From Favolaschia claudopus (lineage: Eukaryota > Basidiomycota > Agaricomycetes > Agaricales > Mycenaceae): a stretch of DNA of 64,000 bases. Shown here one piece after another: positions 4,990-18,704 of the stretch. Position 1 is the stretch's first letter; every line of letters starts with the position of its first letter. The stretch is taken from contig JAWWNJ010000103.1 in NCBI GenBank assembly GCA_037176885.1, forward strand, positions 620,001 through 684,000, in the 5' to 3' direction. The notes beneath the pieces are model-generated. The model saw only the letters and a program-made list of their open reading frames with translations. It did not search any database and was not told where the DNA came from. A program made the translations under genes and the position numbers.

Positions 4990-5297
4990 TAACAGAATCT
5001 GAAAATGCGCGGAAGGCGCAATAACCTCAGTCTCCCGCAATGTGGGATGAAAGACTGTATATTAAGTACCTGAAAATGCGCGGAAGGCGCAATAACTACA
5101 CAATGAGTAAGTAAATACAAGTAGGTAGATAGATAGAGAACTCACCCTCAGTCTCCCGCAATGTGGGATGAAAGACTGAGGGTGGTGGACAGACGAGCAC
5201 GGTTTATATGTAAGAACAAGGCTGTATGATAAGTATCAGATATCTATCAAGGGCCGGAGCGGCGGGGCGGCTACCCGGAATAATTCATATTCTGACA
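4990..5297 (-). repeat. 3' LTR of copia B
   Basis: On the minus strand it begins TGTCAGAATATG directly after the polypurine stretch GAGTGGGGG (5298-5306) and ends CTGTTA. It contains two copies of each of two modules, TGAAAATGCGCGGAAGGCGC and the hairpin-forming CCCGCAATGTGGG. The termini are TG…TA rather than TG…CA. Confidence 0.92.
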
Positions 5298-5914
5298 CCC
5301 CCACTCGACCCAGGCCGTAGTCCCATAGATAGACAGAATTTGGAGTGCTTGTCATGAGATAAAGGTTTTGTGAAAATATCGGCCACCATTTCATCTGTAG
5401 GATACCACAAGACAATACATTCTCTGGTGCGAACCAAGTCATCACGAACAAAATGATATTTTCTTTGTATATGCTGAGTCCTAGCGCGGTATTGTGGATC
5501 CTGGGACAGAATAATGGCAGCTCGATTATCACATCTCAACTCAGTGGGATTTCTCTGATGTTGGCCTAGTTCGTCAAAAAAGGATCTTAACCATGCTAGA
5601 TGTTGTCCTGCATTTGCAAGTCCAATGTATTCACTCTCAGTAGAAGATAGAGCGACCATGGATTGCCGACGGCTAGACCATCCGATTGCTCCAGAGTTGA
5701 CAATGAACACATAACCAGAAGTAGAACGAGATGTATCTCTGTCTCCATTCCAATTGGCATCACTGTATCCCAGAAATTGCATGTCCATGCTGATGTCAGC
5801 CCCGTTGTATACAAGTTCCCAATGACGGGTGCCTTTGAGGTATCGAAGAAGTCGTTTTGCTGCTGCCCAATGAATTCTCTTTGGCTTTGCACTAAATCGA
5901 CCAAGTACTCCTAC
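5298..5914 (-). pseudogene. Copia B: RNase H and polyprotein C-terminus
   Basis: The frame reads GYSDANWNGDRDTSRSTSGY, then ALSSTESEYIGL and LRCDNRAAI, the RNase H catalytic blocks, and ends FTKPL…GLRPGSSGGVRI with TAA next to the LTR. DANW, TESEY and CDN carry the metal-binding acidic residues, so the domain itself looks intact. It is separated from RT by the KH element. Excising that insert and one CCTAC copy rejoins the frame (…PDLAYCVG/VLGRFS…). Confidence 0.92.
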
Positions 5915-6087
5915 TGTCAGGGGACTCCACAGCTATGACTTGGGCAGAAGTTCTCTGTCTCCAAGACATCATGCTGTGCTCACTTATGTCATATCTTACG
6001 TCACCTCTTGTATATAAGTAGTCCGCTGGGGATCTCTGATCCCCAGGTTTGTTATCGACTTGGCTCCTGGGCCCTTCTCCCCTTACA
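5915..6087 (+). repeat. 5' LTR of the KH element
   Basis: It runs from TGTCAGGGGACTCC to CTTCTCCCCTTACA, 173 bp, and appears identical to the 3' copy. It contains a TATA element at 6011 and a short hairpin at 6026-6046. Confidence 0.93.
6011..6046 (+). promoter_or_regulatory. TATA box and 5'-RNA hairpin in the LTR
   Basis: TATATAAGTA (6011-6020) is a good TATA box. CTGGGGAT-CTCTG-ATCCCCAG (6026-6046), a perfect 8-bp stem with a 5-base loop, lies about where transcription would start. The repeated (R) RNA end would therefore carry the hairpin at both termini. Its role in packaging, strand transfer or termination is inference. Confidence 0.55.
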
Positions 6088-6192
6088 GCATAACAAACCT
6101 TCTATTCGACTCTGGCACTCTCCTAGCCCCAGCCGACCACCCTACTTCCTACTCTGCCCTCATCCTACCATCGACCTCACACCTCCCTTGCT

Positions 6193-7239
6193 ATGGCAAC
6201 CCCCGCAGTTCCTCAGGACCTTTATTCCTACTGCACTCTCCTTCGAAGCGAACTACAGCGTGTCCACGACCGTCTTGATCGTCTTGAGTTTGGGGACGCT
6301 GCAGCCTCTACTCCCCGAGGGCATGCCTGGCGCTTCTCTTGGGATGGTGCTCGCTGGGGCTCTGAACCTTCAACCCCAGCCCCTACCCCTGCCATCATCG
6401 CTGTCGGCCACACCGCCATACCACTCGCCGAAACCCTCCCTACTGCAGAGGACTCACCGTCCCGCTACTCGTGTACGCTTGTGGTGCCTGACTCGGTCGT
6501 CGGGCATATCGTTGGCCGTGGTGGTAAGGGTCTCCATCAGTCGCACGACATCTCCGGCGCCCAACTTCGAGCCTATACTGATAAGGCTTCCCCCTTGGAG
6601 CGCCGTGTATCTATCCGCGGTACCGACCAGCAAATCGGTGAAGCGCTAATTGCGCTTGGGAAGCGTGTCATGCGTAAGCGTATCCGCTCTAAGAAGAAAG
6701 GTCCGTCACGCCTTTCCGGGGACCCTGCCCTTCCCCCTCCTGGCCCGGTGCCGGTTTTGCCGAACGCTTCTGGCGAGGGCTGTCGCCCGCTGAAGAAGCG
6801 CGCACACCCCGTCCACCCGTCTCAGTCACCAGCTCCGGTTCCGCCCCCTCCAGCGGCCAGTGCTCAGCCGCACCCAGGTGCCGCTACACAGCCAAGGAAG
6901 TCTGGGGTGCGATTTGCACCACAGGAGTCTTCCTACCCCGCCTCTCACTCCCTACCCCATAACCCTGCCACCATCTCTATTCCTACGCAGGTAATGGCGT
7001 CCCCAATTCCTACTCCCCGCCCCAGCTCTACTCCTTATGCCCCCTCGGTGGCCATGTCCACTGCCGTCCCGTCCCCCCCTCCACGTTCAGTAGCTCCTTC
7101 GCCTATGGCCATTGATGCTATTCGACCTGAAAGGGGACGTCGACCACAGACGGCACGGCGAGGTGGTGCAGTGTCTGCGTCTGATACGCGGATTGACTCC
7201 CAGGGCAACCTACTCTTCCGTGGCGATCCAGGATTTTGA
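6193..7239 (+). CDS. KH-domain RNA-binding protein of the LTR element
   Basis: 348 codons, starting at the first ATG after the leader and ending about 63 bp before the 3' LTR. Residues about 8-32 form a probable coiled coil (LLRSELQRVHDRLDRLEF). Residues about 92-164 are a type-I KH fold: a CTLVVPDSVVGHIVGRGGKG block with the canonical GxxG loop (GRGG, residues 108-111), helices and a closing basic segment (KRVMRKRIRSKKKG). The rest is a long Pro/Ser/Ala-rich region with basic patches and a conserved-looking C-terminal tail, NLLFRGDPGF. There are no Cys-His knuckles. KH domains bind short single-stranded RNA. By position this is likely a gag-like or RNA-packaging factor, but that role is inferred. 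No stop or frameshift is seen. Confidence 0.88.
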   Translation: MATPAVPQDLYSYCTLLRSELQRVHDRLDRLEFGDAAASTPRGHAWRFSWDGARWGSEPSTPAPTPAIIAVGHTAIPLAETLPTAEDSPSRYSCTLVVPDSVVGHIVGRGGKGLHQSHDISGAQLRAYTDKASPLERRVSIRGTDQQIGEALIALGKRVMRKRIRSKKKGPSRLSGDPALPPPGPVPVLPNASGEGCRPLKKRAHPVHPSQSPAPVPPPPAASAQPHPGAATQPRKSGVRFAPQESSYPASHSLPHNPATISIPTQVMASPIPTPRPSSTPYAPSVAMSTAVPSPPPRSVAPSPMAIDAIRPERGRRPQTARRGGAVSASDTRIDSQGNLLFRGDPGF

Positions 7240-7287
7240 AAGATCGTTCATTCTACTGGGCTTTGGTCTTCGTCGAGGCGACGAATC

Positions 7288-7302
7288 TTGAAGAGGGGGT
7301 GA
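7288..7302 (+). promoter_or_regulatory. Polypurine tract of the KH element
   Basis: The purine-rich run AAGAGGGGGTGA immediately precedes the 3' LTR. This is the expected position of the plus-strand primer and fixes the element's orientation as plus. Confidence 0.75.
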
Positions 7303-7475
7303 TGTCAGGGGACTCCACAGCTATGACTTGGGCAGAAGTTCTCTGTCTCCAAGACATCATGCTGTGCTCACTTATGTCATATCTTACGTCACCTCTTGTA
7401 TATAAGTAGTCCGCTGGGGATCTCTGATCCCCAGGTTTGTTATCGACTTGGCTCCTGGGCCCTTCTCCCCTTACA
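7303..7475 (+). repeat. 3' LTR of the KH element
   Basis: 173 bp, with no difference from the 5' LTR seen on reading. It is followed by the CCTAC target duplication at 7476-7480, after which copia B RT resumes. Confidence 0.93.
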
Positions 7476-8700
7476 CCTACACAGTATGCAAGATCTGGTC
7501 GAGTACCTAGCATGGCATACATAGCAGACCCGATTACACTTTGATATGGAACAATAGATCCGCCTTCGACAATAGCCATATGGGTAATGATACTGTCGTC
7601 ATCAGGGTCATTCTCTGTGAGCGGGGTTCCAGTAGACATAGGCGTGAATACAGGTTTACAGTCTGTCATGCCATAGCGAGAAAGGACTTTGTCAATATAC
7701 TGACACTGGTTCAGTGCAATGGTGCGCTTCTTACGGTTTCGAACGATCTCGATCCCAAGGAGGTATTTGGCTGGACCTAGGTCTCGCATCTTAAAAGTAG
7801 ATGAAAGCATTCTTTTGACTTTGGAAGAGAATTCTTTAGAAGTTGCAGCAACAAGAAGATCATCAACATAGACCACAACAAAACAAGTCTGTTTGCCTTC
7901 TTTATAAACATAAAGGCAGGTCTCTGAATTCAAGCGATGAAATCCGAGTTTTAGAATCTCTGTGTCAAAAGTCCTGTTCCAAGTTCTCCCAGCTTGTTTA
8001 AGACCATACAATGAACGCTTGAGTCGCCAGCAGTGACCTTCTGGAATTTCAACACCATCTGGAGGCATCATGTAGATTTCTTCTTCCAGTTTACCATTGA
8101 GGTAGGCTTGTGAAACATCCAGCTGATCCAGTTCTAAGTCATATTTGGCAGCAAGAGCACAAATGATGCGAACAGACTCAAGATTGGCAGTGGGCGCAAA
8201 AACTTCTTTGTAGTCAACACCTTCTTTCTGAGTATCTCCTCTGGCAACGATTCGGACTTTGTAACGAGCAATTTTGCCTGTTTCATCCACTTTGACTTTG
8301 GGAACCACTTTGGATTTAATAGGCTTGACACCGTCTGGTATGGGAACAACATCATAGACATCATTTGCTCGGAAAGCAGCAAGTTCCTCTTCAAGTCCAG
8401 CTTTCCAATGTTCAGCATTAGGACCCTGCAATGCTTCTTGCCAACTAGAAGGGTCAAGAGGGTTCTGAGCTAAAAAGGCTTCTTTAATAGCATCATCTAG
8501 AGAAGCAAGCAAGACTGCCTCTGGAGCATCAGGGACTTCAATGTCTGGTTCGACAGAAGCTTCATTTTCTTTCGCCTGTTTACGTGCTGCATTCTCTGCA
8601 TCACGCTGAGCTTTTGACTGATGCTGTGGTCCTTCAGCTATTCTGTCGTACTCAGCAGTGGGATGTTGTGCCCTTGCATGTGGACGTGTTGACCACCTAG
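7476..8700 (-). pseudogene. Copia B: reverse transcriptase
   Basis: Minus-strand frame with all copia RT landmarks: a long linker, then WKAGLEEELAAFRANDVYDV, ARYKVRIVARGDTQKEGVDY, LDQLDVSQAYLNGKLEEEIY (first Asp), GLKQAGRTWNRTF, VVVYVDDLLVAAT (YVDD active site) and MRDLGPAKYLLGIEI. The domain is open throughout. It runs out of frame only where the KH element enters, after GTRPDLAYCVG. The upstream end is interrupted by the Tc1-like MITE. Confidence 0.95.
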
Positions 8701-9550
8701 TACTCGGTGTCCACAAAAGTGACCGGAAATCCGTGCCAAATTTGTAGTATTTTCGGAAGCAAACTAGATAGGTGTAATCCTTGCTTTATTCTGATCACAT
8801 ATCATACATATCATGTGTAAAGCTGCTCAGGAGAGACCGTTCCAGAGGGACAAATCCATCAGCTGTATTTTGACGGTGATCAACAAAGTCAGTGCAACAA
8901 AGCTTGTTCTGGGAGGAAAATTATGGTTTTGATTTTGCAAGACTCTTCAGCATGGTGTCCTTTTGTGGGCACGAAGACTCGACATTGAAAAGAAACTGTG
9001 TACAGTTGATATTTGCAGTGTTTATTTTCAACAGAGCGTCAGACAATTATTTAGGGTGTTTTAAGCAACAATTCAATCAGTTCTGGCTACCTAACAATGA
9101 ACACTAATTGTGTTCAAGAGGCCTATTGATATTGCTTCTGTCTCCAAACTTGCATAAATGTGAGTGGAAAACTGAAATTTAAGCAAAAGGTTGAAAATTC
9201 TGGTTTCCACAATTCTGGTCTGATAGTGCATCATTTGGAATGGTTCAGAGGGCTTGAGAGATACTAACAGAGCGCTCATGTAGTATGCATTGTGCGAAAA
9301 TGGTCAACCATGCGTATTTGAGCCAACAGCAACCAATTTCTGGCACAACCTTGACAACTTGGCATTGCCAACCAAGAACATCCTGAATTCAACTAGCTCT
9401 AGAATGATGTAAAGAGAGCAGATCTCCGAGAGACTTAGGAGATGATCTACTCACATTAAAAGGTATGCAGCCAGGTGCAGCAACCGTGGGAAACGCACAT
9501 GATCGCGTCGAAATATCGGCATTTCCGGTCACTTTTATGGACACCGAGTA
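8701..9550. mobile_element. Tc1/mariner-type MITE
   Basis: Terminal inverted repeats of 28 bp with one mismatch (left CTCGGTGTCCACAAAAGTGA, right CTCGGTGTCCATAAAAGTGA on the complement) bound 8703-9548 and are flanked by TA (8701-8702, 9549-9550). 846 bp with no transposase. Excision with one TA restores the copia B frame (…RQEP-TRWSTRPH…). The TIR resembles Tc1-like ends (GTGTCCAxAAAAGTGACC). Confidence 0.88.
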
Positions 9551-9762: not shown

Positions 9763-10125
9763 TGTGAAGCCTGCGTGCTTCGGTTCGGGGGCTTCTCGTC
9801 CTTCTGAAGACTCTGATACTGGTTTAACGGTTATCGGGCGCTAACCAGGCGCTGTGACCCTTCCGCAGGAGCTGTGTCACCCTGAGCAGGGCTCTGGTAA
9901 TCCGGAGAGGAGGGCAGTTGTACGGTTGCCCAGCCAGAGTGAGTATTGAGATATAAGGAGCACCTCCAGGCCCTATGCGTCCGTTCTTTAAGAAAGCATG
10001 TGTAGGCAGAGGTTAAGTTATTCAATGATTATCTAATACATCATTGTGGCTATGTGACCCGCGGAATGCTACCTAATCGGGAATGTTTGATGGACATGCT
10101 AAAGGGATATTCCTCCCATATCACA
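9763..10125 (-). repeat. 3' LTR of the gag/pol-less element
   Basis: Runs TGTGAAGCCTGCG to CCCATATCACA on the plus strand. The ends read TGTG…CACA in both directions. It matches 18342-18704 except for about two substitutions. Confidence 0.92.
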
Positions 10126-10136
10126 GAGCCCCCCGC
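10126..10136 (-). promoter_or_regulatory. Polypurine tract candidate
   Basis: GCGGGGGGCTC on the minus strand abuts the 3' LTR. The same AGCCCCCCGC string recurs at 10650, so the tract may have been duplicated by the inverted cassette lying between. Confidence 0.5.
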
Positions 10137-10204
10137 ATGTTCAGTGAACATGCCCGAATAAGTCAATCTTGAACATTTGGCGAACCTTTCAAATGTTCAG
10201 CTGT

Positions 10205-10544
10205 TGAAAAAAAAAAAAAAATTTGGCCCAAAATTTCAACGTGATGTTTCTTCGCAAATGGATTTGCCGAAGGCGACAGTTGGGTGAGTGACGAAAGCTT
10301 ATCAGCTTTCCACGTAGCAGCAGGTAAAGCTCTAGAGCAAAGCTCCATACAGAGCTTTCCCTTCTCGCCGTGTCCAATTCCAAGTCGCTGTAGCGTGGCT
10401 GAGGGTATCTGCAGATCTGAGACATGAAGTCCAGATCCGCATGCAAAGGATGAGGGCAGACGTTGTCTGCATTCACGCATCAACAGAGATGTACTGTAGA
10501 TCCACAACTGTGGATTCACATTGAAGCCGTTGTCTTCCTCTCCG
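10205..10544 (-). repeat. Inverted cassette, copy 1
   Basis: About 330 bp, from the A-rich end (A tract then TTTGGCCCAAAATTTCAACG) to TCTTCCTCTCCG, is nearly identical in inverted orientation to 17082-17410. It contains further small palindromes such as AAAGCTGATAAGCTTT and AGCTCCATACAGAGCT. No gene is recognised. Confidence 0.8.
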
Positions 10545-10604
10545 TGATAGCGGTGAAACCCTCAATATCCTAAGCCAAGCTCTAAGGAGAATGGGGAGAG
10601 GAGG

Positions 10605-10650
10605 AGAGTCAACACGGTTGACTCTCACTATACATATACCCCTACACAGC
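10605..10650 (+). repeat. Palindrome plus CCCTACACA motif, copy 1
   Basis: GAGTCAACACGGTTGACTC is an 8-bp perfect inverted repeat with a 3-base spacer. It is followed by TCACTATACATATACCCCTA and CACA. The same block occurs, in the same orientation, at 17035-17081 next to the other cassette copy. A regulatory or end-recognition role is possible but unproven. Confidence 0.65.
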
Positions 10651-11559
10651 CCCCCGCTTTTTTGCCGTGCAGCTCAATGACGGAGGAATCTGGATGTGCG
10701 GCAGAAAATCACCAAACTCGAAACGAAGACTCGAAGCTTCTCGCGACAATTCAATGAGGTTGTTCACCGGGATTGGAGCGAACAATGGCCCCCCAATCCC
10801 TAAGTAAACAGGCTTCATTCGCAGCCCCCCAGGATGAAGACTGCAATAGAACTTTGACGCGTAAGGTCGGGTCACTGTTTCTAGTCCATGTCCGCAACTT
10901 CAGTCGTTACGAAAAAAAAATTGGGGCAAATTTTCCGAGCAGGAACTCTACCTCGCAGTAGGGAGTTCGACCACTAACCCTGATAACAGTTTGCAATTGA
11001 GTTCATCCCTTGAAATGAAGTCGAAGGGAATCCATTCACAAATGAATGAAGAGCGTCGAACACTCATGAACTTTCAAATTCAATAAACATTGACCTATGC
11101 CCCCCAGGCTCCGTGGAATCAACTCTCTCAAAGAGAGCTACACCCTGGCCGCCTCGAGCCTTCGAAAATTAATTCATCCTTGGAATCACTGTTCCAAGGC
11201 ATCCATTCATTGATTGAATGAAGAGCACTCAAGCTCATGAATCAAGACGGTGGTGCGTAGATGTTCGACGAAGACGATGTTTTCGTAGTAGAACAGAAAA
11301 ATATTCATTTCCTAGTCACCGCACATGGGAACTCGACACCTTCGCCGGTGGAATTCACCAATAAGGGTATGTAATGAACAGTCAACAAACCGAGCGCGGC
11401 ACAACAAAGTGGAGTTCAAGGTCTGAACGCTGAAGTCCGAGCTCACGCTGGACAGCGGAGCTCAAGGACGCCATGCAGAGATCAAGACTCCAGAGTTTGA
11501 GGCTGTGATCTCGAGGCTTTCAAGACGAAGAAAGAGACTCGTGTTCCCGGAGGCCTTGA
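10651..11559. other. Non-coding part of the LARD-like element
   Basis: AT-richer sequence with CCCCCCAG strings (about 10791, 11101) and the twin stem-loop repeats. AAGTCCGAGCTCACG/CGGAGCTCAAGGAC (about 11430-11465) recurs near 17985-18022, close to the other end of the element. Confidence 0.5.
10995..11241 (+). repeat. Twin stem-loop repeats
   Basis: Two related units of about 75 bp, 10995-11070 and 11167-11241, start near TTCATCC and end in a CTCATGAA-type string. In each a first stem (CCTT…AAGG in unit 1, CCTTGGAA…TTCCAAGG in unit 2) is followed by a second (CATTCA…TGAATG and CATTCATTGATTGAATG). Bases differ between the units while pairing is kept. Confidence 0.6.
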
Positions 11560-14500
11560 CGTCGCTTGCAGACGGAGGGTGTCCGACGTGATGGGTCTCC
11601 TCGTATCTTATCGACCCAAATTCCATCTAAACACTTCTCGTCCCCTCATGGCCATTCTTCGCTTCAGAACCCCCTTTTCCGTGAACCCGAATCAAGTCAA
11701 GCTATTTTACTCGGTGACGAGCATTAAGGATCGAGGCAGCGCGTGAAGGGTACGCGCTCGAATCAGCAGCAGAGGCGACGGGCGAGGGATGTCGACGATG
11801 GCGAGAGAGAACAACGGTCGACGAGGGCGAAGAGGACAAGGGAAAGTGACACGGCGTTATTGCGAAGGCGACGCATCAGCGAAGCCGCGAGGTCGTTAGA
11901 ACGCTAGTCCTCAACGTCTTTCGTAGACGGAGGGCGTCTTGTCTGCCATAGCAGCGAGGGAGACAGCAACAACGCTGAGTAGATCGTCGGATTGGTTTCC
12001 AGACGACGCGACGGAGACGAGGAGTGGAGGACGCCAGAGCGGCGTCGTAGTGGGCCTCGACGTCGTTTGGGGACGGAGGCGTCCGGCGTGAAGAGTTTCC
12101 CGACACGCCTTCACAGATGCGGCGACGAACGACGATCTCACTTATCTCTTGCAGACCCAACCCATCCAAATTCCATCTCGTCCCTTCGACAATATTCCCT
12201 CCCAACGGAAATCTTTGAGACGTTTTGCAGGGAATCAAGCAAGTCGCTTGTTGCATCGGAAGTCAAAAAGGAGCGTTTGCATCCTAAACGGGCGTCATGA
12301 TGCTCGAGTCAAGTCGGGCAGTGAAGAAGTCCGATCTCTTCGCAGGTTCGCCAAACTACGCAAGATACGGCCAGAGAAACCTCGACGTCTCATTAGACGG
12401 AGATTTACTCGTAGCCGTATTCGGCGCAAGCAGCGCAATGTGCAGAAGAAACGCTTCCTTCGAACTCCAAGCTTTCTCGGTTAATCTTTCAACCCTACGA
12501 AACTATTGTGAACGTAATAGGTGGCAGCTCGCGCTTCTTCTACGCGATGAGTTGCTGGGGTCGAAAGTCCGTCGGAGAAGAGCCGAGTCGATTGACGCAA
12601 ACAAGAGCTGGCAAGGGCGGAGATGGGCTCGCTGTGAGGTGTATTCGTCAAGACGAGTTATCGTTAACGAGCGCTTCAATCGTGTGATGCAGAGGCCTCG
12701 ACGTCGGTTTGTAGACGGAGGCATTCCGGATGTGAATCGACGAAGCGGGCGGAGTGAAGTTTAAAGGCGAGAGCGTTTCGAAACTCTAAGTAGTGAGGCT
12801 TCGAAAGTGTCGATGTGAAGCCGGCTCGACGTCTCCGAGACTTGCAGACGGCGGGAGTCCAGCACGATGCGAGGTGATAGGTGCGAGACGGGGAAAGGAG
12901 GCACGATGAAAGTCTCGCGCCGTTGAACGGTGTAAAAGAGAGTGACATCGCTGAATCTCTTGCAGCGAGTCGGGTGCACACGGGGCGGTACAGCAGAGGT
13001 GTGCTGTCGCCGTGCTGGGCCTCAAGATCGTTTGAAGATGGAGGGAGTTCGGCGTTGGCGAACGGCGACCGAGTCGACAACAACACGACGATCAACTCAC
13101 TACAAACGTTCCACCCTTGACTCCAAGCCTTTCCTCTTTCTTCTCTCTACTCTTCCCTTTCCAACGGCTCAAAGGTCTTCTCGGACACGAGAAACCGTGA
13201 AATTTTGAGTGAGGTCGGCGGTTTGCGGTAGCGTCGATAAGAAGCTTAAACGGCCGCTTGTGAACCGCGTCGGAGGAGTTGATGTAATGTACTAATGGGG
13301 ACCTCAATGTCTCTTGCAGACGGAGGGCACCGGTGTTGAGGGAGTACAGAGAGGAAAGAGGTGCGCAGGAGCGTCGAGAGGTGGTGGTGGTGGGAGAAGG
13401 CAACATCTAGATACCACGCTTGACGATTGGACTCGCCGAATCAATATCTCCGCACATCACTTTTACTCTTTTGTACCCGCACTTCCGACTCGAAACGGCA
13501 CCCTTCCAGGATTTGCTGACTCCATTTACAATATCACACTGCCCCCCAGGTAGCAAATGCTTGAAGAGGAAAAAAAAAATTCCGCTGCAATTTCCTCATT
13601 TCCTTCGATACGACGATATTACAGTACGACATGAGCCGCTTCGTCAAGAGTCAATCAACCACGCAAGAGACCAACCAACAACTTAATGGCGCGTAGGATT
13701 GCGGCGAAGAAGGCGGAGGCAACGGAGATCAAACTGTGCACACAGCGGTCTCGACGTTCCTATCCGCCTGTGTACATTCCGTGTGTAGGTACGTGTACAT
13801 CGTTTCCAGTAGAAATGAGGCGAGAGGGACAAGCGAGATGGGCAGCGAGGGATGTCCGCGCTGAGTTCTTCGACAACCCAGCTCCCATCTTAATCTTCTA
13901 CTTTCTTCTCAACGACCTGACGATGAGCCCCGCGAGGCTTGAGATTCAAGCATTGAAAGTTCCGCCTCGACGTCTGGCTCAAACGGAGGCGAGAAGAATG
14001 ATCGCGCAGTCGGCAAGGATGACAAGCGGCGAAGAATCGGGCTTCGACGTGCAAATGTGGAACGATACTCTCCCCTCCTTAATTCTGTCATCTCCCAAGA
14101 TTTCTTGACGTGTTGGAGCTGGGCCTCGACGCTTCTTGTAAGCGAAGGCCATCAGCGCGAGGCGGAGGGAGTGCACGAGATAGAGGGAAAGCAAGAAGTG
14201 GTGTCGGCTGCCACGTTGACGACGACCCAAGAGCTGCCGGCGACAACGCGGCGTGCAGCTTAGGAATCCCGCGCAACATACAGAAGCGCGCAGTCGATAG
14301 GTAGGAGCGGCGACGGGGCAAGCAGCTGCGGCGGCGTACCGGGTCTCGACGTCCAATCGACGTCGTTATAGACGGAGGACGTCTGGTATTGGAAGGTGCT
14401 TGGTTCCCTACGATCCCTAATCCCATCCGAATTCCATCTGAACTCTTCCAAACTTCTCTCGCCTACATCTCTTCCCTACTGAAAAATGCCCCAGACGCCT

Positions 14501-17470
14501 TGAATTGAGACGATTGACTCGGGCGTAAGCGTCGGAGGTCAAAGCAAGGCGTAGGCCCATCCAAAGCAGCAAGTGGTTTCCGCAAGGAGCTGGGCCTCGA
14601 CGTCCCTTGCAGACGGAGGCTACAGCGCGAGATGCTTTGTCGGCGCAACGAGATGCAGGAAGAAGTGAGGAGGGGAATTACTGTCGCGTCGACGGCAAGC
14701 GCGTGGAAGAGATGGCCGTCTTTTCTTCCATAGATCTCAGGTGAGAACGAGGCGAGGGAATCGAGCGAGGTGGATAGCGGGGTTTGGTGTCTTGAAACGA
14801 CGTACGCGCTTAGATCTTCACCACTCTGAAGTTCTCTCTATTCCTTTATCTTCCCCTCGACAACACGACGACGTGCCGCGCTAAAAACACCGCCTCAACG
14901 TCTAGTCTAGCTCAGACGGAGGCGAGGACGAGGTGGCTGTCACGCGAATGGCATTAATAACACAAGCAGAGCCTCGACGTCTGAAAGACGGAGGGCGTTC
15001 GGCAACGGAAAACGCGGAGGTAGGGTTGTCGAGGATGAAAAGAGAATAATCGGTCGAGGAACTAGGCGCTGAGCAGCAATCGCAGCGAGTGTAGACGACG
15101 CGAAGCGTTGTCACTCACTTCCTTCTTTACCAACCCGAACCCCGGTCGTCTCCTATTCGTCCTCTCGACAAATTCTTTCCCTCCACGTGGGCGTTGGAAG
15201 CGAAAGTTTCGGGTGCGCACATCCAACGAGGCCGCAAGGTCAATATAACGCTACCCTCGACGTTTGTTGTAGACGGAGGCTACTAGAGATCGGCTAGATG
15301 CCGGGGATGCGCGCTGGGAAGGGAGAAGGCGAAGGACTACAGCATATCCTCGCGTTCATGGCGAGGCGAGTGGAAGCGCGGAGCCAGCAATATCAGCGCT
15401 GGAAGAAGTCGCTGGCGAACTCCAGGAGAATGTTCCTCATCGTCGTCCAACGAGCTCATCCCAACACACATTCAATCTTTTAGCAGGTTTACCAGACCGC
15501 ACAGAATACGGCCAGAGAAATGTCGACGTTTGATAAAACGGAGATTTATTCCTGGTCGTATTCGTCGCAAGCGGCGTAAGGAGGTCGCCTGGCTGCCTGA
15601 TAGATTGCAGTCTTGCGGATATGCTGGCGGAAAGGCGATAAAACGAAACGACCGGCTCGACCACCCTCGCAGCGGGTGGCTCGTCGTATGGATGCGATGC
15701 GGCTCGGCGTCGGTATGAAGCTGAGTCTCAACGTCACTTGACGGAGAGCGTATCGACGGCGATGCGAGATGTAACTCCTACTCACGGGGTCTCGACGAAC
15801 GGAGAACGACCGAAGGGCGGTGGTCAATTAGAGATCGACAAGAATGCGACGGCGAATGAGGTGAACTCGCAAGCTGTTCGCGAGCCCGTCGACGGCGAGA
15901 ACGGAAGCAGAGCGTGCGGCGGCATCATAGCATGACGTTTGACTCTTCTTTCGCTTGACATTCCAATGAAGACAGAACGAGAGAACACCAAGAAGATCAA
16001 AGGAGTGAGCGCGACGCGTTCGGCGACAAGGAAGGAGAGAGCGGCGTCGGAATGAAGCTAGGTCTCGACGTCACTTGACGGAGAGCGTCCAGCGGCGGCA
16101 AACTTCCCAAGACGGCGGTGGTCGTCGAGTTGGCGGCTCGACTTGGATGCGCCAACATATCTCTCCTCGACCCTTCGACAACATCCCTTTCTTGCGGAAA
16201 CTGTTCTGGACGCCTTGTATTGAAAGTAGCGTCTAGCTCGAGCGTAGTCGTCGCAAATCAAAGCGCATCCAAAGCAGCTGCGACGGCCTCTGAGTGGAGC
16301 CGGGCCCGACGTCTCTTATAGACGGAGGGAGTCTGGTTTTGCAAGCGCCAGAGCGACTGACAAGTCCGAACTCTCCGCAGATTCACCACCGCGCAAAATA
16401 CGGCCAGAGAAACCTCGACGTCTAATTAGACGGAGGTTTACTCGCAGTCGTATTCGGCTCAAGCGGCGCAACCTAACCACGGGGCACTGGAAGACCAAAA
16501 TGCTGTGGAAACTTGAAGCGACAACACAGACGAACCACGAACGAGACTTATCCACTTGCGCGGAGGGAGCATCGTCGAGATCAAATGCTGATGTTCGTGT
16601 TCGGCGAGGGAAGACGCGACGGTGGAGGCGGCGGCGATCTTGGATCTATTCGACCTCGCGTGACGGCGACGAATGGACGGGGCGTCGGATGATACAAGCG
16701 CTCTTAATCTCGTGATGCTGTATGTCGGTAGTATCGATGAAGAAGAGTCGCTGCGTCGTACTGAGCCTCGGCGTCGCTAGGAGACGGAGACGATTGGCGG
16801 GGCGAGTTCCCCAACACTCCAGCACACGGGGACGAAGCGACAAGGGAGTCAAACTCACTTCCTCCCAATCCTTTCTAATCTCCGCTTTGTCTTCTCAACA
16901 AAACTCCTTCCCCACAGAAACCTGCGGCAGACTTTCAAACGTCTCGATTAGGGACGCGCCACTTGCTCAGGCGTGGGCGTCGAGAGCCATGTCGACGCGT
17001 GGGCGCGTCCAACCGAGAAGGAGTTGGGGTGAGGAGGAGAGTCAACACGGTTGACTCTCACTATACATATATCCCTACACACGGAGAGGAAGACAACGGC
17101 TTCAATGTGAATCCACAGTTGTGGATCTACAGTACATCTCTGTTGATGCGTGAATGCAGACAACGTCTGCCCTCATCCTTTGCATGCGGGTCTGGACTTC
17201 ATGTCTCAGATCTGCAGATACCCTCAGCCACGCTACAGCGACTTGGAATTGGACGGCGAGAAGGGAAAGCTCTGTATGGAGCTTTGCTCTAGAGCTTTAC
17301 CTGCTGCTACGTGGAAAGCTGATAAGCTTTCGTCACTCACCCAACTGTCGCCTTCGGCAAATCCATTTGCGAAGAAACATCACGTTGAAATTTTGGGCCA
17401 AATTTTTTTTGTGTAGGGGTAGAACCGGACCTCGACGTCTTCTTGCAGACGGAGGGCGTCCGGCGTCGCT
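11560..17470 (+). repeat. Array of about twenty dispersed hairpin motifs
   Basis: Consensus CCTCGACGTCtcttgc followed by AGACGGAGGGCGTCCGG. Copies begin near 11568, 11911, 12058, 12381, 12695, 12823, 13306, 13969, 14127, 14345, 14593, 14895, 14975, 15258, 15727, 16064, 16303, 16413, 16767 and 17433, all in the same orientation at irregular spacing of roughly 80-670 bp. CGTC/GACG arms are kept while the loop varies (CGTCTAATTAGACG, CGTCTGAAAGACG, CGTCACTTGACG). Between motifs lie diverged pyrimidine-rich blocks (such as AATTCCATCT, then CCCTCGACAA), suggesting a decayed larger unit. No coding function is seen. Confidence 0.75.
17073..17418 (+). repeat. Inverted cassette, copy 2, with CCCTACACA ends
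   Basis: The 330-bp cassette appears here in the opposite orientation to copy 1 and is bounded by CCCTACACA (17073-17081) and TGTGTAGGG (17410-17418). That makes this copy look like a short TIR-bounded unit. The palindromic block at 17035-17072 precedes it. Confidence 0.7.
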
Positions 17471-18324
17471 AGTACGCGGAGGACGAGCGAGAGGAGGGGA
17501 GAGAAAGAAGAGTTGACTGCCACGTCGATAACGACGGCGTGGGAGACAGCGGCGACAACGCGGAGCGGGTCGTCGGATCGAACCCCGTGCGACAGCGCGA
17601 GTAAAGTCAAAAACGACGTGAGATTGCACCAGTGGCGGAGGCGAGGGCGGCGCGAGATGTTGTGTACCAGAGAACTCACTTGGTTGTTCTTCTCCCGTTT
17701 CCTCCGAATCTCATTCCCTGTCAACGATCGTTTTCCCCGATGAAGTCTTGAAGTCTTTTCTTCCAATTCGAGTACAGGGTAGCGTTGGGTTGAGGATGGA
17801 AGGAGGTGGAGGTGGAGTCGAGGTTGTGGTCGTCACCCGACTAGTCGAATAGCAGTATAAAGACAAAATGAATATATTTGCCCTCGACTAAGTACACGCC
17901 GGAGCTCAAGCGCTCGGAGCTCACGGTACGAGTAGGAGATGTAAACCTGAGCGCAACATTGAACAACGAAGCTCTAGGTTTATGCCAAGTCCGAGCTCAC
18001 GCCGTCAGCGGAGCTCAAGGACAAGATTAAAGGCCAAAAGCGGATTTTCAAAGCTATAAGCTTTGAAGACGCAGTTTATCCCGTAACGAGGGGCGTCAAT
18101 TCCAAGTATAGCGGCCAAGGTGGGGTGAACGGAATTGACGGGGCGGATAATGTCGCGGCCCGCAAATCAAATGAATGAAAGTGAGGGAGGCGACAAAGCG
18201 CCTCACCGTACCACTATTGAGACAGCAAGCAGAGGGGAGGTTACTTGAGGCTCGCAAGAGGTAAGAAGTCTATTGTAGACTTGGTGAGGTGCTGAGAGTC
18301 TTCGGGAGGAGTTTGGTGAAGCCT
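17471..18324. other. 5' internal region of the LARD-like element
   Basis: No gene recognised. GAGCTCAAGCGCTCGGAGCTC and CGAGCTCACGCCG…GGAGCTCAAGG (17913-18022) are palindrome-rich and resemble 11430-11465. The remainder up to the primer site has no frame with a motif. Confidence 0.45.
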
Positions 18325-18340
18325 CCCTGTGTGTCCACCA
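18325..18340 (-). promoter_or_regulatory. Primer binding site candidate of the LARD-like element
   Basis: One base inside the 5' LTR the minus strand reads TGGTGGACACACAGGG, complementary to a tRNA 3' end finishing …TGTCCACCA. The TGG start and the position fit a conventional tRNA-3'-end primer site. The tRNA was not identified. Confidence 0.6.
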
Positions 18341-18341
18341 T

Positions 18342-18704
18342 TGTGAAGCCTGCGTTCTTCGGTTCGGGGGCTTCTCGTCCTTCTGAAGACTCTGATACTG
18401 GTTTAACGGTTATCGGGCGCTAACCAGGCGCTGTGACCCTTCCGCAGGAGCTGTGTCACCCTGAGCAGGGCTCTGGTAATCCGGAGAGGAGGGCAGTTGT
18501 ACGGTTGCTCAGCCAGAGTGAGTATTGAGATATAAGGAGCACCTCCAGGCCCTATGCGTCCGTTCTTTAAGAAAGCATGTGTAGGCAGAGGTTAAGTTAT
18601 TCAATGATTATCTAATACATCATTGTGGCTATGTGACCCGCGGAATGCTACCTAATCGGGAATGTTTGATGGACATGCTAAAGGGATATTCCTCCCATAT
18701 CACA
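18342..18704 (-). repeat. 5' LTR of the gag/pol-less element
   Basis: 363 bp, TGTGAAGCC…ATATCACA, the partner of 9763-10125, followed by the TATTC target duplication at 18705-18709. Confidence 0.92.

Follow-up and report, generated by a model that had tools for sequence, protein, structure and literature searches.

A complete LTR retroelement with a single gene

We analyzed a stretch of 64,000 nucleotides from the genome of Favolaschia claudopus, a member of the Mycenaceae (contig JAWWNJ010000103.1, positions 620,001 to 684,000; hereafter the window, with positions counted from its first letter). At 5915-7475, the window contains a complete long terminal repeat (LTR) retroelement of 1,561 bp, which we term the KH element. 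In this non-autonomous element of Agaricales fungi, a gene for one type I KH protein takes the place of gag-pol: the element has two LTRs, a 5-bp target-site duplication, a primer site, and a purine tract, without gag-pol. The 5' LTR (5915-6087, 173 bp, TGTCAGGGGA...TCCCCTTACA) and the 3' LTR (7303-7475, 173 nt) are 100% identical, and the element is flanked by CCTAC on the left (5910-5914) and on the right (7476-7480). All of the internal features are on the + strand. A TATA box (TATATAAG, 6011-6018) is predicted 34 nt upstream of the predicted 5' end of the mRNA, which is also the putative self-primer (AGGTTTGTTAT, 6045-6055) and is the reverse complement of a self-complementary primer-binding site (ATAACAAACCT, 6090-6100). 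The leader (6088-6192) is C-rich (48 C and 10 G among 105 nucleotides) and is followed by the sense open reading frame (ORF) for the KH protein (6193-7239, 348 amino acids). Beyond the ORF, CGTCGAGGCG (7271-7280) begins a 3' segment that, by alignment, is common to a chromodomain Ty3/gypsy element (discussed below), and a polypurine tract (GAAGAGGGGG, 7290-7299) lies directly before the 3' LTR.

An earlier reading of this DNA from its letters alone (the sequence-only reading) described the element as structurally complete, with an intact ORF for a GxxG KH domain and neither pol nor a zinc-knuckle gag. We verified the identical LTRs, the duplication, the purine tract, and the ORF, whose GxxG loop is GRGG at residues 108-111. 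In a Pfam search that admitted E values of up to 1, the protein has a single match, which clears the curated cut-off: KH_1, at residues 94-153 (E = 4.5e-6).

Copies in the genome

We searched the F. claudopus assembly (264.6 Mb in 460 contigs). We scored 40 of 495 candidates, and the copy counts are lower bounds. Among these best 40 candidates there were at least 41 matches at at least 40 loci, and 39 of the matches were full length, with 96-100% identity. The element is not single-copy, which the sequence-only reading had named as a finding that would count against it. The exact junction between the LTR and the leader occurs 130 times genome-wide, as compared to 2 times for a reversed control. 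We followed 20 of these junctions, sampled from at least 100 that were listed and not overlapping the 40 scored loci, for up to 8 kb. Sixteen of them lead into the KH gene, whole or partial; the remaining four have just the LTR and leader, and then truncated or foreign sequence.

Twenty-nine distinct copies align end to end in one piece (23 were found through top matches or LTR hits, and 6 through leader junctions). All 29 have an exact 5-bp target-site duplication, and there are 27 different pairs of flanks, so a few of them are duplicates of one insertion. The two LTRs are identical in 21 of the 29 copies (one of the other eight, L043, was wrongly split by the LTR script). The 348-codon ORF is retained in 22 of the 29, or in 19 of the 23 copies from best matches or LTR hits versus 3 of the 6 from leader junctions. 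Thus, the ORF is present in other copies, and the concern that it might be peculiar to one copy can be set aside.

Some copies are rearranged. An extra or partial third LTR beside the KH element at two loci (L037:6427-6781 and L040:1694-1925) hints at tandem or recombined copies. On contigs C264, C30, and C50 (loci L009-L014), parts of the KH element edge a repeated block of about 15 kb. On C264 and C30, the order is a whole KH element, other sequence, and then the 3' half of a KH element with its LTR, while the first edge of the block on C50 carries the LTR alone. Two other loci (L042:7627-8401 and L048:90-864) share a 775-bp block with 99.4% identity, which runs from the KH 3' end through the LTR to the leader and adjoins inverted-repeat sequence. 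This block looks like a junction of tandem elements that was caught by another repeat. Also, one predicted protein (P0040) has a foreign N-terminal part fused to the C-terminal part of the KH protein.

The KH protein: fold, relatives, and selection

The solved chains that are closest by sequence are the KH domains of KSRP, PCBP2, Nova-1, and FUBP1. With an alignment of 15 sequences, AlphaFold2 gave a poor model (mean predicted local distance difference test, or pLDDT, of 54.6); with 65 sequences, the mean pLDDT rose to 64.3. The latter model predicts a type I KH fold (beta-alpha-alpha-beta-beta-alpha with the GxxG loop) at residues 92-161 (6466-6675, block pLDDT 86-92), in agreement with Pfam and Foldseek. 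It also predicts an N-terminal helix at residues 10-39 (6220-6309, block pLDDT 74-86) and a C-terminal beta hairpin at residues 332-342 (7186-7218, block pLDDT 84-88). Between the KH fold and the hairpin, the pLDDT is mostly below 60. For the N-terminus, the sequence-only reading had proposed a coiled coil. The top Foldseek match is the third KH domain (KH3) of PCBP2 (E = 3.8e-6, template modeling score 0.86 by target length, 27% identity), followed by PCBP1 and the KH3 of hnRNP K. A search of a viral structure library with the KH model found no match at an E value of 0.001 or better.

Across the 65 sequences, R137 is nearly invariant, and it aligns with an arginine of the first KH domain (KH1) of PCBP2. 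The tail had been described as conserved-looking, and indeed P304, M305, A321, and R323 are also nearly invariant. P304 and M305 are part of the motif SPMAIDA (residues 303-309; 7099-7119), which is of the type PM-x-[IVL]-D that most family members of 300 amino acids or more carry.

Relatives of the protein are found well beyond Favolaschia. A phmmer search identified 66 relatives in Favolaschia, in eight named Mycena species, in Dendrothele bispora, in Tetrapyrgos nigripes, and in metagenomes. The identity to 14 of these relatives averages 83% in the KH region (range 59-91%) and 32% in residues 166-270. A profile search found 168 relatives and extended the range to Phlegmacium glaucopus (Cortinariaceae); among the best 120 of these, many are environmental proteins of close to 340 amino acids. 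The environmental contigs that carry relatives have a median length of about 1,630 bases, and 50 of the 64 listed are within 1,100-1,850 bases. This is the size of the whole element, and it fits collapsed repeats of whole elements. All 65 of the aligned family members match KH_1, and none of them matches a gag or pol family. When viral contigs were scanned with the KH alignment, there were 91 pattern matches but no relative. A tree of 25 selected proteins groups them by species wherever a species has more than one (some inner branches of this tree are open, and the positions of two long proteins, P0047 and P0061, are unsafe). Judging from these protein sequences, which for relatives outside of Favolaschia are considered here apart from any flanking LTRs, the family is old and spans several fungal families.

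To look for selection, we compared the 22 intact copies, with each variant counted once and the tree ignored. The ratio of nonsynonymous to synonymous variation (pN/pS) is 0.44 for the whole ORF, with 45 of 98 changes being synonymous (P = 0.0014). By region, pN/pS is 0.10 (residues 1-45), 0.48 (46-89), 0.23 (KH region, 90-165), 0.68 (proline-rich part, 166-300), and 0.49 (tail). In the N-terminus and KH domain combined, 13 of 19 changes are synonymous (P = 0.0009 versus an expected 0.31), and in the proline-rich part, 14 of 38 are (P = 0.29). So, the N-terminus and the KH domain are apparently under purifying selection. The sequence-only reading had suggested checking for multiple copies with selection on the KH domain, and this is what the variation among the copies indicates.

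Predicted self-priming

A primer site that is complementary to a tRNA would start with TGG. The primer site of the KH element does not: ATAACAAACCT sits two bases past the LTR, and its reverse complement, AGGTTTGTTAT, is within the LTR at 6045. When the LTR was shuffled 20,000 times, 4 of the shuffles gave a pairing of 11 nucleotides with the leader. Both 11-mers are kept in 28 of the 29 end-to-end copies (the exception is L031). A stretch of 66 nucleotides folds into the 11-nt hairpin with a z score of -2.46 (3 of 200 shuffles were equal). In self-priming of the Tf1/sushi type, the 5' end of the mRNA is complementary to a primer site after the LTR, and RNase H cuts the mRNA to release the primer. 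By sequence, the KH element has this complementarity, with the transcript start being a predicted one. Self-priming is a common feature of Tf1/sushi chromoviruses, according to PMC10085805. A new finding here is that the leader pairs with the start predicted for the mRNA, in the manner of Tf1/sushi elements.

A likely helper

As the KH element lacks gag-pol, which element moves it? One of the leader loci (L048) adjoins a Ty3/gypsy gag (Retrotrans_gag, E = 2e-7), which belongs to a separate and abundant family that starts at L048:864 (the best 40 of 1,266 candidates were scored). The copy of this gypsy element at L049 has a 332-bp LTR that starts with TGTCAGGGGAACTCC and ends with CCCTTACA, followed by GCA. 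The LTR of the KH element starts with TGTCAGGGGACTCC and ends with CCCTTACA, also followed by GCA, and both LTRs open with TGTCAGGGGA. The gypsy LTRs occur in pairs that are about 5.6 kb apart (one on C169, one on C5, and two on C14), which implies a total length of about 5.9 kb. The pair on C169 encloses the gag match (227257-228455), a middle piece that encodes RVT_1 (E = 1.3e-25; the reverse transcriptase, or RT, frame is interrupted by a stop in this copy), and a 3' end with matches to SH3_Tf2-1 (E = 1.4e-15) and Chromo (E = 1.7e-8). With gag, RT, and a C-terminal chromodomain between its LTRs, this element is a chromovirus.

The gypsy element and the KH element also have similar priming layouts. 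The gypsy element has a 12-nt primer site two bases past its LTR, and the reverse complement of this site begins 33 nt downstream of a TATATG box. This 12-nt pair was equalled in 5 of 20,000 shuffled LTRs. The primer letters themselves (11 versus 12 nt) are unrelated. A second gypsy subfamily (L052) has a different U3 (the 5' part of the LTR) but the same LTR ends and the same 12-nt pair. Furthermore, the last 33 alignment columns before the 3' LTR (CGTCGAGGCG and the purine tract) are common to the C169 copy and the KH element, with a score that was reached in 1 of 5,000 shuffles, or in 8 of 5,000 if the tract is left out. In the pieces of the gypsy element that we read (the 5' end, gag, an RT stretch, and the 3' end), the leader, the LTR body, and the coding sequence are not shared with the KH element, save for a doubtful five-residue motif. 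Given these similarities in sequence, the abundant gag-RT-chromodomain Ty3/gypsy element is likely to be the helper that moves the KH element. The sequence-only reading had asked whether there is an autonomous relative with the same LTR ends, and this element is a plausible one.

Relatives of the helper's Gag are found in Mycena citricolor and M. olivaceomarginata, which both have the KH protein as well, and in M. haematopus and M. chlorophos. There is no Favolaschia protein among the 78 Gag relatives that were listed, although the F. claudopus genome carries the gag family. It is possible that there is a clade of helpers rather than just one, because the LTR start (GGGNNGATGTCAGGGGA) is found 475 times in the genome, versus 0 times for a reversed control, and at least one additional family has it.

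Two side observations concern these LTRs. A 15-nt stretch of the KH LTR (GACTTGGGCAGAAGT, LTR position 23, window 5937-5951) is present as its reverse complement in the L052 LTR and is a possible shared control site. A third family (L053) shares GGGCTGATGTCAGGGGA at the LTR start and diverges after that.

We rejected several other candidates for the helper. The LTRs that are about 15 kb apart on C264, C30, and C50 might have marked a large helper, but they edge the repeated block that mixes KH-element parts with other sequence. In this block, stop-free stretches of at least 80 codons lack a YxDD motif, and four of the ORFs are without a match in Pfam. The four loci with just the LTR and leader were also rejected: L045 and L047 are truncated copies, and L042 and L048 share the block with inverted-repeat sequence. 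Finally, we searched for helpers by pattern. Allowing a different letter next to the LTR start gave 2 hits, as did the control, and allowing the primer site to continue differently gave 1 hit.

What might the KH protein do?

We propose that the chromodomain Ty3/gypsy element would supply the Gag particle, the reverse transcriptase/RNase H, and the integrase. The KH-element transcript would begin at about 6045, and its first 11 nucleotides would fold onto the primer site (6090-6100) and prime reverse transcription. The helper's integrase would accept the shared LTR ends and create the 5-bp duplication. The KH protein, perhaps dimerizing through its N-terminal helix, would bind the C-rich leader of its own RNA, and the helper would then package or reverse transcribe a larger share of that RNA. 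In other words, it would be a nucleocapsid-like factor that acts mainly on the RNA that encodes it. We favor binding to the element's own leader because the predicted fold is closest to a set of KH domains with poly(C)-binding ones among them, because R137 aligns with an arginine of PCBP2, and because the leader is C-rich (46% C and 10% G, versus 37% C in the ORF; a stretch of the helper's leader is 36% C and 23% G). We give the idea that the KH protein binds its own leader and promotes the packaging or reverse transcription of its own RNA by the helper slightly less than an even chance. The broader idea, that mushroom-forming fungi contain a widespread and undescribed class of satellite-like LTR elements whose own nucleocapsid-like KH protein, encoded in place of gag-pol, steers their RNA into chromodomain Ty3/gypsy particles, while the self-priming layout and integration ends of the helper are kept, is one that we hold somewhat more tentatively.

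Several observations weigh against these proposals. The C-richness of the leader may be incidental, given the C content of the ORF and of the helper's leader stretch. KH domains serve many RNA processes, and we infer the binding and packaging of the element's own RNA from sequence. The LTR bodies of the KH element and the helper do not align (the best local E value is 0.15, at the LTR start), and as at least one further family (L053) uses the LTR start, the exact helper is not fixed. A longer fold of the KH element is no better than shuffles (z = -1.15), and neither is the fold of the helper (z = 0.02). Also, the pairing and the matching ends were spotted first and tested later, with shuffles that preserve base composition only. 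Lastly, decay is common, as just three of the six complete copies that were picked by leader junction retain the 348-codon ORF.

The main rival to a role in packaging is RNA stability or defense against silencing. The KH protein could be a factor for the stability, export, or translation of RNA, or an anti-silencing factor, acting on the RNA of the element or of the host, while the helper's Gag packages the RNA via cis signals alone. The best solved matches to the KH domain are in KSRP, PCBP, hnRNP K, FUBP, and Nova, which have roles in mRNA stability, splicing, and translation. Such proteins usually have a basic stretch and a proline-rich part, and so does the KH protein, in which the basic stretch follows the KH domain and the proline-rich part is modeled at low confidence. 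This explanation accounts for the conservation of the protein as well as packaging does. It leaves unexplained why the gene should be in an LTR element that must pass through the bottleneck of a helper's particle, and we consider it to be somewhat unlikely. The protein might instead be a Gag-like adaptor or decoy, with a Gag tail motif that docks on the helper's Gag and so brings in RNA or disturbs the particles. A motif of the form PM[DEQAVHLS][IVL]D is within the last 110 residues of 78 of the 96 KH proteins of 300 amino acids or more (47 of the 96 have the strict form, PM[DEQ][IV]D), and among the listed Gag relatives, 44 of the 46 with a CCHC have P[MIL][DEQ][VIL]D no more than 45 residues ahead of the zinc knuckle. 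In both families the motif precedes an Arg-rich tail. The only alignment that hhalign found between the KH and Gag families is on this motif, but it is not significant (probability 2.2%, P = 0.022); the best BLASTP match between the KH protein and the helper's Gag is elsewhere and is not significant either (E = 1.1); and neither the KH protein nor the 65 aligned members match a capsid family. The motif may be a shared docking motif, or it may be due to chance, and we think that an adaptor or decoy is improbable.

We also weighed two further explanations. The KH element could have arisen by simple deletion from an autonomous element with gag, pol, and a KH gene; the sequence-only reading had cautioned about a deletion derivative. 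A gag-pol element with the same ends does exist, but other observations speak against a derivative origin: just the ends are shared in the pieces of the helper that we read, and there is no KH gene in these pieces. Also, the junctions that we followed lead into the KH gene or into truncated or foreign sequence. (An RT-type YxDD motif is present at 2 of the 20 junction loci, L031 and L037, but the KH element is complete at both loci, which places the motif outside of it.) Because Pfam gives no Gag or pol match for the KH protein, which also lacks significant similarity to the helper's Gag, we argue that the KH element is not a plain deletion derivative, and we view this explanation as very unlikely. 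Least probable of all, in our view, is that the ORF is a captured fragment of a host gene that rides along and contributes nothing to mobility. Hosts commonly have genes for KH proteins, and gene pieces can be picked up by small LTR elements. But a passenger would not explain the signal of selection or the same protein architecture in other genera, and there is no host KH gene, by name, among the best 120 of the 168 relatives from the profile search (candidates were limited to 0.55-1.75 times the length of the query, and most relatives lack informative names). As for the proposal of the sequence-only reading, a non-autonomous element with a dedicated RNA-binding-type protein, we found that the element is conserved and multi-copy, apparently under purifying selection, and has a plausible autonomous partner; selective packaging of its own RNA is the part that stays conjectural.

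Surrounding elements

The KH element sits within a Ty1/copia element (window 5285-8716, - strand). An ORF of the latter (7253-8716, - strand), which reaches into the 3' end of the KH element, matches RVT_2 (E = 4.1e-69), and a short ORF on the other side (5285-5788, - strand) has no match in Pfam. A second LTR element is at 9763-18704 (8,942 bp), with 363-bp LTRs that are about 99.4% identical, a target-site duplication of TATTC, and the termini TGTGAAGCCT and CCATATCACA.

Comparison with known systems

Non-autonomous LTR elements are usually viewed as empty passengers or as Gag-only derivatives. The KH element, with a protein family across several fungal families, a signal of selection, and a likely helper that can be named, suggests that an element which hitch-hikes can retain an RNA-handling protein of its own. 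The element and its likely helper make it testable how the RNA of a retroelement's parasite comes to be favored over that of the helper. The two partners are also a compact example from nature in which one self-priming layout goes with unrelated primer letters. Among the papers listed in our literature searches, which covered titles and the starts of abstracts and lay mostly outside of subscription papers, we found no description of an LTR element with a KH protein.

The KH protein resembles PCBP and hnRNP K in its type I KH fold, with the KH3 of PCBP2 being the best structural match, but it differs from them in having a single KH domain, an N-terminal helix, a C-terminal hairpin, and a mobile-element setting. 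The KH element resembles the Tf1/sushi chromoviruses, as described in PMC10085805, in its self-priming layout and in its likely helper, which has a chromodomain and a match to SH3_Tf2-1. In contrast to those elements, it has no gag-pol, and the helper is likened to them by its domains and priming layout and not by a tree.

Terminal-repeat retrotransposons in miniature (TRIMs) have a recognized size range, and at 1,561 bp, the KH element reaches or exceeds its usual upper limit. It is like TRIMs, as PMC4717578 presents them, in being small, in having short LTRs (173 bp), in its 5-bp duplications, and in its dependence on other elements. TRIMs are without coding capacity (PMC4717578), whereas the KH element has a conserved gene of 348 codons that makes up two thirds of its length. 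The other obvious comparison is to TR-GAG elements, which, according to PMC8704663, have a single ORF that encodes Gag. Like them, the KH element is a single-ORF LTR element that is able to move though most of the proteins are missing, but its ORF encodes a KH protein without a Gag domain. Thus, the KH element fits neither the TRIM nor the TR-GAG class.
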